Below are positions 37,168-48,436 of a stretch of DNA of 64,000 nt, piece by piece. The translations under genes and the position numbers were made by a program. Below the pieces are notes generated by a model. That model did not search any database. It saw only the letters and a list, made by a program, of their open reading frames with translations, and had not been told where the DNA came from. Numbering within the stretch: position 1 is the stretch's first letter; each line of letters starts with the position of its first letter. This DNA is from Rhizobium leguminosarum (lineage in GTDB: Bacteria; Pseudomonadota; Alphaproteobacteria; Rhizobiales; Rhizobiaceae): positions 2,666,001 to 2,730,000 of the forward strand of contig NZ_CP016286.1 of the NCBI RefSeq assembly GCF_001679785.1. The letters are read 5' to 3'.

Positions 37168-38919
37168 TCAGGCCTTGCCGGCCTTCACGTCGAGCACGCG
37201 GTTAGCGGCCGAGACGATCGCTTCCAGCGATGCCGCGACGATGTTGGTATTGATGCCGGCGCCGAAGAGTTTGCCGCCGGGATAGGAGGTCTCGACATAG
37301 GAGATCGCCGCCGCGTTCGAGCCATGCTGGAGCGAATGCTCGGAATAGTCCTCGACCGACATCTCGATGCCGAGATACTGCGACAGCGCATTGATGAAGC
37401 CGTCGATCGGACCGTTGCCGCGCCCTTCGATGCGCTTGATCTCCCCATTGTCGGTGATCTCGGCTGCGACGATCCGCTGGCCCTTGTGCTCGGTGTCGGG
37501 ATAGGTGTGATGGTCGATGAAGCGCAGGCGGCCCTCCGGCTGCGTCACGTAGCGCTCGATGAAGCGGTCGTAGATGCGCCGGGACGGAAGCTCCTTGCCC
37601 TCTACGTCGGTGATGCGCTGGATATCCTCGCGGAATTCCACCTGCAGGTTGCGCGGCAGGTTCAGCCCGTAATCCTGCTGCAGGATATAGGCGATGCCGC
37701 CCTTGCCGGACTGAGAGTTGATGCGGATGATCGCCTCGTAGGAACGACCGACATCGCGCGGATCGATCGGCAGGTACGGGACCTCCCACACGGGATGGTT
37801 AGCGACCTGTGCTGCCTTCATGCCCTTGTTGATCGCATCCTGATGCGAGCCGGAGAAGGCCGTATAGACCAGCTCACCGACATAGGGATGACGCTCGCCG
37901 ATCGCCATCTGGTTCGAATATTCGAACACTTCCTTGATGCGTTCGATATTCGAGCAGTCGATCTCGGGATCGACGCCTTGCGTGAACATGTTCAGCGCCA
38001 TCGTCACCATGTCGACATTGCCGGTACGCTCGCCATTGCCGAACAACGTGCCTTCGACGCGGTCGGCGCCTGCCAGCAGTGCCAGTTCGGCAGCAGCAAT
38101 GCCGGTGCCGCGGTCGTTATGCGGATGCAGCGAAACGATCAGGTTCTCGCGATTGTCGAGGTTGCGGCACATCCATTCAATCTGGTCGGCATAGACGTTC
38201 GGCGTCGCCATCTCGACGGTGGACGGCAGGTTGATGATCAGCTTGTTGTCGGGCGTCGGCTTGACGACCTCGATGACGGCATTGCAGATCTCCAGCGCCA
38301 CATCGAGTTCCGTGCCGGTAAAGCTCTCCGGGGAATATTCGAAACGGTAACCGCCGCCGGCCTTCGTGGCCATATCGGTGATCATCTTGGCGGCATCGAC
38401 GGCGATCTGCTTGATGCCTTGCACATCCTTGGCGAAGACGACGCGGCGCTGCAACTCGCTGGTCGAGTTGTAGAAGTGCACGATCGGCCGGTTTGCGCCT
38501 TCCAGCGCTTCGAAGGTGCGGGTGATGAGTTCCGGGCGGCACTGCACCAGCACCTGCAGGGAGACGTCGTCGGGCACATTGCGCTCCTCCACGCACCAGC
38601 GGGCGAAGTCGAAATCGGTCTGCGAAGCCGAGGGGAAACCGATCTCGATTTCCTTGAAGCCCATCTCGATCAGCAGGTGGAACATGCGCGCCTTGCGATC
38701 ATGGCCCATCGGGTCGACGAGCGCCTGGTTGCCGTCGCGCAGGTCGACCGAGCACCAGACCGGTGCCTTGGTAATGGTCTTCGTCGGCCATGTGCGGTCG
38801 GGAATGTTCACCTGCGGATAGGCCCGGTATTTCACTGCGGCGTCGGGCATGCCTTTTGCGGGGCTCATCTCGCTCTTGGAGGCCATCTTATCTCGGGGGG
38901 ATTGCGTCTTCGCGTCCAT
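37168..38919 (-). CDS. leuA: 2-isopropylmalate synthase
   Basis: LeuA condenses acetyl-CoA with 2-oxoisovalerate, the first committed step of leucine synthesis. The 583-residue protein has the TIM-barrel catalytic part (WCSVDLRDGNQAL, EIGFPSASQTDFDF, LHPHNDRGTGIAAAE with the His metal ligands, GNGERTGNVD) and a C-terminal LeuA dimer/regulatory domain (GNGPIDGFINAL) that normally gives leucine feedback. The start at MDAKTQSP follows ACGAGGAG. It is preceded by a Leu-rich leader frame (39074-39199) suggesting transcription attenuation. Confidence 0.97.
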   Translation of the reverse strand: MDAKTQSPRDKMASKSEMSPAKGMPDAAVKYRAYPQVNIPDRTWPTKTITKAPVWCSVDLRDGNQALVDPMGHDRKARMFHLLIEMGFKEIEIGFPSASQTDFDFARWCVEERNVPDDVSLQVLVQCRPELITRTFEALEGANRPIVHFYNSTSELQRRVVFAKDVQGIKQIAVDAAKMITDMATKAGGGYRFEYSPESFTGTELDVALEICNAVIEVVKPTPDNKLIINLPSTVEMATPNVYADQIEWMCRNLDNRENLIVSLHPHNDRGTGIAAAELALLAGADRVEGTLFGNGERTGNVDMVTMALNMFTQGVDPEIDCSNIERIKEVFEYSNQMAIGERHPYVGELVYTAFSGSHQDAINKGMKAAQVANHPVWEVPYLPIDPRDVGRSYEAIIRINSQSGKGGIAYILQQDYGLNLPRNLQVEFREDIQRITDVEGKELPSRRIYDRFIERYVTQPEGRLRFIDHHTYPDTEHKGQRIVAAEITDNGEIKRIEGRGNGPIDGFINALSQYLGIEMSVEDYSEHSLQHGSNAAAISYVETSYPGGKLFGAGINTNIVAASLEAIVSAANRVLDVKAGKA

Positions 38920-39031
38920 CGTGTCGTCTCCTCGTCCCGGCATTTGCCCGCTCTTAGCCGATCACGTCGGGCTTGGCGATAAACAAATGCGGACCTTGTC
39001 GGTCGTTAGGTCAATTTTGAAAGTGAGTCGC

Positions 39032-39075
39032 GAGGAGCGATGGCCGGGCGGGCTTTCGGCCGCCGGGCGCTCCTC
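39032..39075 (-). promoter_or_regulatory. Candidate leuA attenuator hairpin
   Basis: Perfect 8-bp arms GAGGAGCG (39075-39068 on the minus strand) and CGCTCCTC (39039-39032) enclose a very GC-rich interior with further pairing. The left arm overlaps the leader stop codon and could alternatively pair with CTCCTC in the Leu codons. There is no clear T tract. Confidence 0.5.
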
Positions 39076-39199
39076 AAAGGACCCGGCAACCGCGCGTAAG
39101 GCCGAGGAGAAGAAGCGAGGTCAGGGCGCGCGAGACGTCACGCAGGGCGATGCGGCCGCGTGCAATCGTGTCAGAAATTCTGGCGCCAGTGGTCTTCAT
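39074..39199 (-). CDS. Candidate leuA leader peptide
   Basis: A 41-codon frame ending LTSLLLLGLTRGCRVL, with the codon run CTT CTT CTC CTC GGC CTT just before the stop, 155 bp upstream of leuA on the same strand. Leucine-rich leaders commonly control leuA by attenuation. The promoter geometry (see 39208-39236) matches trpL in this window and puts transcription start close to the ATG, so it would be leaderless. CTCCTC in the Leu codons can pair with GAGGAG after the stop. I see no clean U tract, so the mechanism is not proven. Confidence 0.65.
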   Translation of the reverse strand: MKTTGARISDTIARGRIALRDVSRALTSLLLLGLTRGCRVL

Positions 39200-39207
39200 G
39201 ACCGCGC

Positions 39208-39236
39208 TTATAGCCTCGGACGGTAAAGCTGGCAAG
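39208..39236 (-). promoter_or_regulatory. Promoter of the leuA leader
   Basis: On the minus strand CTTGCC (39231-39236), a 17-bp spacer, then CTATAA (39208-39213), against the rhizobial consensus CTTGAC-N17-CTATAT. Only 8 bp separate the -10 box from the leader ATG. Confidence 0.65.
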
Positions 39237-48284: not shown

Positions 48285-48318
48285 ACAAAAAAAGCCGCCT
48301 CGAAGTTTCGGGCGGCTC
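48285..48318 (-). terminator. trp attenuator terminator
   Basis: Stem GAGCCGCCC / GGCGGCT (48293-48299 with 48311-48317, inner TCGAA/TTCG) followed on the minus strand by seven T. It lies between trpL and trpE. AGGCGGCC just after trpL can alternatively pair with the terminator arm, the expected antiterminator. Confidence 0.9.
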
Positions 48319-48354
48319 ACTCGTCGTCTTTGGACACGATTGGTCGAGGCCGCC

Positions 48355-48399
48355 TTAGCGAACCCACCACCAAACAGCAATGTTCAAGGACTTGATCAT
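48355..48399 (-). CDS. trpL: trp leader peptide
   Basis: A 14-residue leader, MIKSLNIAVWWWVR, with three consecutive Trp codons. It matches the known Sinorhizobium trpL leader in layout (three Trp near the end). Ribosome stalling at the Trp codons when tryptophan is scarce prevents the terminator at 48285-48318 from forming. The -10 box ends 8 bp before the ATG, so the mRNA probably begins at the start codon and the leader is translated without a ribosome site, as reported for S. meliloti trpL. Confidence 0.95.
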   Translation of the reverse strand: MIKSLNIAVWWWVR

Positions 48400-48407
48400 G
48401 GGAAAAT

Positions 48408-48436
48408 TGTTAGCTTGAGATCAGCGATTGCGCAAG
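48408..48436 (-). promoter_or_regulatory. trpL promoter
   Basis: On the minus strand CTTGCG (48431-48436), a 17-bp spacer, CTAACA (48408-48413), then 8 bp to the trpL ATG. Confidence 0.75.

Follow-up and report, generated by a model that had tools for sequence, protein, structure and literature searches.

The leuA gene of Rhizobium leguminosarum is preceded by a short, leucine-rich reading frame. This leader is probably a ribosome-mediated attenuator of leuA that senses leucyl-tRNA, is translated from a leaderless message, and operates without a U tract; its response to leucine and its direction of control are what we infer from comparison with related loci. The window analyzed here is a stretch of 64,000 nucleotides (NCBI RefSeq assembly GCF_001679785.1, contig NZ_CP016286.1, positions 2,666,001 to 2,730,000), and all coordinates are positions within it. 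If the proposal is correct, leaderless attenuation in rhizobia is a shared design rather than a quirk of trp, given a leuA leader in 104 of 109 sampled genera of the family. It also poses the question of how an attenuator with no U tract in nearly all species examined switches its gene off. Several rhizobia require leucine biosynthesis in order to nodulate, and a control point at leuA would therefore be of practical relevance.

The leader reading frame and its leucine run

The promoter, the leader and leuA lie on the minus strand as follows.

39231..39236, minus strand: CTTGCC, -35 element of the promoter predicted for the leader (exact match)
39208..39213, minus strand: -10 element CTATAA, 8 nt upstream of the leader ATG
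39074..39199, minus strand: leader ORF of 41 aa, MKTTGARISDTIARGRIALRDVSRALTSLLLLGLTRGCRVL, predicted to be leaderless (transcript start at or next to the ATG)
39098..39115, minus strand: putative regulatory run CTT CTT CTC CTC GGC CTT, from sequence and codon counts
38928..38933, minus strand: GAGGAG, likely Shine-Dalgarno sequence of leuA (ATG 38919), from sequence
37168..38919, minus strand: leuA, 2-isopropylmalate synthase of the leuA_yeast type (TIGR00970, 773.6 bits, cut-off 697.4)

The leader frame opens with an ATG at 39199, comprises 41 codons, and closes with a TGA at 39076-39074, preceding leuA on the same strand. The positions of the promoter, ATG, 41 codons and stop given in an earlier note on this DNA all agree with the window sequence. 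Its description of the frame as ending in the Leu run does not, as seven codons (ACG CGC GGT TGC CGG GTC CTT) come after the run, and they carry the best conserved helix. A short ORF with a run of end-product codons upstream of a gene of the same pathway, here leuA, is a feature of attenuators.

The leucine codons of the leaders are strongly biased. CUU or CUC accounts for 86.6% of them across 80 loci, versus 23.3% in leuA (79 loci). Within the last 17 leader codons of the 80 loci, CUU makes up 58.9% and CUC 27.7% of the Leu codons (n = 462), and the leuA genes of 79 loci use 3.5% CUU, 19.8% CUC and 63.7% CUG (n = 2891). Under the theory of selective charging, a charging sensor might rely on consecutive codons that share a single tRNA. 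The bias is smaller, however, when set against the 26 long ORFs of the window itself, in which 13.2% of Leu codons are CUU and 34.0% are CUC, or about 47% together, and this counts against the attenuator reading.

A predicted leaderless start

In the window, the leader promoter consists of CTTGCC, 17 nt, CTATAA, and 8 nt to the ATG. The exact string occurs once in the window, and six matches are found with up to two mismatches, versus 1.55 expected. The promoter search took the best score per locus over 170 nt in 80 loci, blind to any ATG; the score combined a -35 element as generally given for rhizobia with a -10 element modelled on the window's own and made no use of the ATG. An in-frame ATG lies 6-10 nt past the best -10 element in 74 of the 80 loci, compared with 3.3% in a null generated by shifting the -10 box, and in 59 of 64 loci once near-identical rows are removed. 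Among those 74 loci, the ATG is exactly 8 nt past the -10 element in 50, and the spacer is 17 nt in 68. These data strongly suggest that the leader transcript starts at or beside the ATG and is leaderless, as had been proposed. The likeness to trpL noted earlier is also borne out, since trpL in the window has CTTGCG-N17-CTAACA at 48436-48408 and likewise 8 nt to its ATG.

Two overlapping helices at the end of the leader

Two RNA structures were found around the leader stop codon, both on the minus strand.

39081..39092, minus strand: 5' strand of helix A, CGGUUGCCGGGU, contained in the leader ORF, predicted from covariation
39057..39068, minus strand: 3' strand of helix A, GCCCGGCGGCCG, downstream of the leader stop, predicted from covariation
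39032..39075, minus strand: hairpin B, with arms GAGGAGCG (39075-39068) and CGCUCCUC (39039-39032), overlapping the 3' strand of helix A

Helix A joins the end of the leader frame to bases past its stop through 12 bp. Covariation was examined in alignments of 64 of the 80 loci, rows at least 90% identical having been removed. Standard pairs occupy 766 of 768 cells of helix A, versus 18-53% in slid versions. Compensatory cells number 27, compared with 10.4 when partners are shuffled, and none of 500 shuffles gets there, although the shuffles ignore relatedness. Because many of the changes are G-U tolerated, 97.5% of cells are still paired with shuffled partners; the weight therefore rests on the 27 compensatory cells versus 10.4. 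Pairs changed on both sides number only 3, versus 1.6 in shuffles, 45 of 500 of which reach 3. Mapped onto a leuA protein tree, the 5' strand of helix A requires no fewer than 33 changes and the 3' strand 24, at least 57 in all, and 2 cells remain unpaired. Two genomes of another family, L114 and L115, keep helix A, with the GGAG/CUCC arms absent by eye. Helix A, which the earlier note missed, is the likely switch element.

The C-terminus of the leader peptide reads RGCRV(R/L/Q/H) or GDRR(V/A)R in 63 of 79 named loci, and 38 leaders of 41 aa are 81% identical over residues 27-41. Some changes in helix A alter the peptide, from GC to DR, yet pairing persists, and for this reason the conserved peptide end looks like the shadow of an RNA. 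The shared ending could alternatively mark a functional micropeptide that is no sensor, and the S. meliloti trp leader peptide is reported to act in trans (PMC10117765, PMC7298713). We regard a micropeptide as very improbable and rejected it on the divergence of the N-terminal part, where residues 2-24 are only 31% identical among the same 38 leaders. The shift from GC to DR under a helix that stays paired also argues against it, as does the finding that 28 of 29 examined matches to a helix A model sit before leuA.

Hairpin B was examined in the same way. The stretch 39078-39030 of the window folds at -28.5 kcal/mol (z -3.3), and longer leader stretches are of ordinary stability (z -0.76 and -0.44). 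The earlier note had paired the GAGGAG after the stop with CGCTCCTC, and the alignments support this: 90.8% of cells are paired across the 64 loci, versus 88.9% shuffled, and 14 are compensatory, versus 3.6 in shuffles that ignore relatedness. Four pairs are changed on both sides, a number that 36 of 500 shuffles reach, and the innermost pair fails in 30 of 64 loci. The same GAGGAG had been given the Leu codons as an alternative partner. That pairing is 87.5% complementary, but its 2 compensatory cells match the 1.9 of shuffles. As an antiterminator it was rejected, given this lack of covariation and at most a weak preference in energy (own partner -8.28, swapped -8.00, shuffled -7.54). The earlier reading thus stands in part: the leucine leader, the leaderless start, the conservation of the Leu run and the pairing of GAGGAG with CGCTCCTC are retained, and the pairing of the Leu codons with GAGGAG is given up.

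Positions 39068-39057 belong to both helix A and hairpin B, each of which covaries. The bases of the helix A 3' strand pair within hairpin B in 62 of 64 folds, so helix A and the inner part of B are mutually exclusive; this inner pairing is only moderately stronger than one with shuffled partners (mean z -1.3). Strict exclusion of helix A is limited to that inner part. The outer part could coexist with helix A in a pseudoknot, with 98.4% of cells paired and both helices covarying (against shuffles that ignore relatedness). Hairpin B has the lower energy in 55 of 64 loci (mean -24.3 versus -21.0 for helix A), in a comparison that favors B by scoring helix A as a fixed helix and B at its minimum energy.

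The compatibility of two covarying helices is what would be expected if a protein or ligand recognized a pseudoknot of helix A and outer B and the ORF were translated only incidentally, and protein binding is proposed for the actinobacterial LEU element in an excerpt of PMC1262725. We consider such a structured RNA unlikely. An in-frame Leu run before leuA in 79 of 79 loci, the promoter-ATG spacing and the bias toward CUY codons are hard to explain without translation.

Conservation among relatives

The named loci were taken as the best 80, and hence the nearest, among 593 confirmed; one (L109) was dropped because it has no upstream DNA, and the 80-locus set is the window plus the remaining 79 named relatives. 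A leader was scored as an ATG-started ORF upstream of leuA with at least four Leu in seven residues. All 79 named relatives have an equivalent Leu-rich frame, in Rhizobium, Agrobacterium, Sinorhizobium, Mesorhizobium and Brucella among others. A chance Leu run is thereby ruled out, and the proposals of a leucine leader for leuA and of a Leu run kept upstream of related leuA genes both hold at these loci. The nearest named relatives of leuA itself, among the best 80 of 593, are from Rhizobium (R. aethiopicum, 96%).

Two further samples extend the comparison. In the genus sample, 79 of 80 genomes have a leuA match, and the leader is present at all 30 loci fetched, one of which is the window's own. 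A leuA of the leuA_yeast type is found in 39 of the 297 genomes that make up the order sample. All 17 order-sample loci from families f1 or f184 carry a leader of the same kind (two of these genomes are also among the 30 of the genus sample). They belong to 29 order loci besides the window's own; 7 others (f196) have a leader of another type ending in LLLSxP, and the remaining 5 have none by the ATG test, L142 being unreadable and L141 and L143 showing a GTG-started Leu run by eye. This second type of leuA leader, ending in LLLSxP or CTCCTCCTTAGCCGCCCCTGA, occurs in families f196 and f221 (L134-L141, L143). By eye, it has a CCCCTGAG...CTCAGGGG-like hairpin with no evident U tract.

A covariance model built on helix A, R1, matches 234 of the 247 genomes sampled in the family and 104 of 109 genera, with a single match in each genome except one, which has two. 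Of the matches fetched, 28 of 29 lie within 400 nt before leuA on the same strand, and the other is 1217 nt from the best aligned piece of leuA. Nine of the 13 family genomes without an R1 match are also without a leuA match at E ≤ 1e-60. Among the four that have leuA, inspection by eye shows a diverged copy in L209, a decayed one in L208 (Leu run still present, helix A only in traces, stop not in place), and nothing recognizable in L207 and L210. The genomes of L207, L208 and L210, which keep leuA with the leader absent or decayed, are 1.0-1.3 Mb in size.

Across the class, R1 matches 4 of 385 genomes under strict filters that lose weak matches: the window's own, L114 and L115 (true by eye), and L116 (doubtful). 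Other alphaproteobacterial families have a Leu-rich short ORF before leuA at 19 of 30 loci (L148-L177), fetched from 111 genomes with a match and scored by a looser test that admits ATG or GTG starts and has no chance control. Seventeen of these 19 ORFs end 231-309 nt before the match, and their sequences differ from the rhizobial leader. On the strength of these 19 loci, leucine leaders at leuA may be common across the class, with folds specific to each clade.

The region after hairpin B

Hairpin B is followed by one further element.

39007..39031, minus strand: linker following hairpin B, rich in A and C and poor in G across loci, with no U tract

In 77 of 80 loci, among them the window, the first 8 nt after hairpin B contain fewer than five U; in this count and in the codon counts above, the stop of the window's own row, one of 80, was placed one base off. 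At least five U in an 8-nt segment anywhere in the first 20 nt occur in only 8 of 64 loci. The longest U run counted from the base of the hairpin B stem is at most 3 in 61 of 64 loci, 4 in two and 5 in one. At two loci (L091 and L099) the fold picked a smaller hairpin, and neither has a U tract by eye; an AT-rich Bartonella locus (L108) has three U in the first eight nt after the hairpin. A scan of the leader strand for intrinsic terminators called none, and the same scan also misses that of trpL. Because 77 of 80 loci are without a U tract, hairpin B is not a standard intrinsic terminator, and the doubt about a terminator raised earlier, for want of a clean T tract, was justified. The absence also counts against our preferred attenuator, in that a defining feature of the classical kind fails.

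The base composition of this region is skewed. The 25 nt after hairpin B have a C/G ratio of 1.94, with C exceeding G in 56 of 64 loci, G at 14% and A at 33%; in the next 25 nt the ratio is a balanced 1.04. Such a G-poor composition would be compatible with either a short Rho site or a linker kept single-stranded. In a Rho-dependent form of the attenuator, which we put forward tentatively, a ribosome ending at the leader stop would let Rho load on the C-rich, G-poor stretch behind hairpin B, whereas a stalled ribosome together with helix A would block loading. The lack of a U tract and the confinement of the skew to the first 25 nt are consistent with this form. However, about 25 nt is short for a Rho loading site as generally described, the stretch is rich in A as well, which could be true of any single-stranded linker, and the leader ORF itself leans to C (C exceeds G in 46 of 64 loci).

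A consensus fold of the Rhizobiaceae rows between hairpin B and leuA gave no structure. A patch at 38990-38952 on the minus strand, GCATTTGTTTATCGCCAAG...GATCGGCTAAGAG, recurs in many aligned Rhizobiaceae rows between hairpin B and leuA and could be a second promoter or an operator that bypasses the attenuator.

The start region of leuA was considered as a target as well. Two in-frame ATGs, at 38919 and 38943 on the minus strand, are 24 nt apart, and GAGGAG stands just before the downstream one. An attenuator acting on translation would have the same leader and switch, with the leuA Shine-Dalgarno sequence masked in the OFF state by the free CUCCUC arm or by the Leu codons, the latter resembling the base stem described for the actinobacterial LEU element; we judge this rather unlikely. 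It fits the lack of a U tract after hairpin B, and in the minimum-energy fold of the window's entire leader the leuA GAGGAG is paired with the Leu codons. A locus's own start region also does better than a swapped one, both for the Leu run (-12.56 versus -12.09, fraction 0.045; shuffled -11.34, a weak preference) and for the hairpin arm (-9.04 versus -8.59, fraction 0.027). The swap tests ignore relatedness, however, and Leu codons, being rich in pyrimidines, pair with any Shine-Dalgarno sequence that is rich in purines. Masking by the arm was rejected: its pairing is no better than with a shuffled partner (-8.95), being lower with the own start region in only 31 of 64 loci, and it has the wrong sign, because formation of helix A during starvation frees the arm.

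Proposed mechanism

Our analysis allows us to outline how the leucyl-tRNA-sensing attenuator would work. Transcription would start at or beside the leader ATG, and the peptide would be translated from the leaderless message. When leucyl-tRNA is short, the ribosome would stall on the CUU/CUC run with its front edge just before helix A. Helix A could then form, removing bases needed by hairpin B, and leuA would be expressed (ON). When leucine is plentiful, the ribosome would reach the stop codon and occlude the 5' strand of helix A, so that hairpin B would form instead and leuA expression would fall (OFF). In the window, the fourth Leu codon is 12 nt before GGUUGCCGGG, and the stop codon is in the loop of helix A, a geometry that fits this scheme, given the usual size of the ribosome footprint. 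For the OFF state, we infer that transcription ends prematurely with no canonical U tract, possibly with help from Rho, and rank such termination, with or without Rho, ahead of translational masking.

A broader version of this mechanism is possible, though we would give it less credence. The leader would be a family-wide switch outside Rfam and a leaderless leucine sensor, its ON state being the pseudoknot of helix A with the outer stem of B and its OFF state the hairpin, acting by a route other than intrinsic termination; the short leader transcript and peptide might also act in trans, as those of trp in S. meliloti reportedly do.

Comparison with known systems

In the enterobacterial leu attenuator (Leu_leader, RF00512), Leu codons lie in a leader peptide before the leu genes, and alternative hairpins form. 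The rhizobial leader differs in that it has no Rfam match, no U tract and a predicted leaderless start. An Rfam search of the leader region returned four matches with E values of 1.5 to 9.9, none of them Leu_leader, and all four were rejected as far below gathering scores.

Alphaproteobacterial ilv attenuators were reportedly described by Vitreschak et al. 2004. They share with the leuA leader the attenuation of a branched-chain gene by a leader peptide, within the same bacterial class, and differ in the gene; an ilvB leader is mentioned in an excerpt of PMC1273637. A literature search of titles and the beginnings of abstracts, among the matches listed, found no rhizobial leuA leader. We claim no priority, because Vitreschak et al. 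2004 or Lopatovskaya et al. 2010 may already mention such leaders.

In gene, leader and lack of a terminator there is a likeness to the actinobacterial LEU element of leuA (Seliverstov et al. 2005, PMC1262725). As far as excerpts of that paper describe it, both have a leader with a Leu run, a leuA of the leuA_yeast type, no evident terminator, and a possible pseudoknot versus an alternative hairpin; the leuA of C. glutamicum scores above the leuA_yeast cut-off. The two RNAs, compared by description, differ in their stems, since the base stem of the LEU element is formed by the Leu codons with the leuA Shine-Dalgarno sequence, whereas the covarying rhizobial stems lie elsewhere. The C. diphtheriae leader, given as MNRANLLLLRRGGSQA in an excerpt of PMC5784534, is without the RGCRV/GDRRV end in that form.

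As proposed, the leu leader works like a classical attenuator and like trpL, yet it is outside the classical intrinsic-terminator kind, in which we do not file it because the U-tract feature fails. It resembles trpL in having an ORF predicted to be leaderless, 8 nt from the -10 element to the ATG in the window, a run of end-product codons and a position before a biosynthetic gene. The two differ in that trpL in the window is followed by a T run (TTTTTTTGTTT, by eye), and the leu element has no U tract. We take the trpL (rnTrpL) attenuator of S. meliloti to be RcsR1 (RF02552). Within the window, RF02552 matches only the trpL copy and not the leu leader. In S. meliloti, the trpL message is reported to be leaderless in an excerpt of PMC10117765. 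The trpL leader of the window, at 48288-48436 on the minus strand, has the layout CTTGNN-N17-CTAACA-8-ATG and matches RcsR1 at 111.8 bits; the Rfam entry classes RcsR1 as an sRNA, though it spans the trp leader region.
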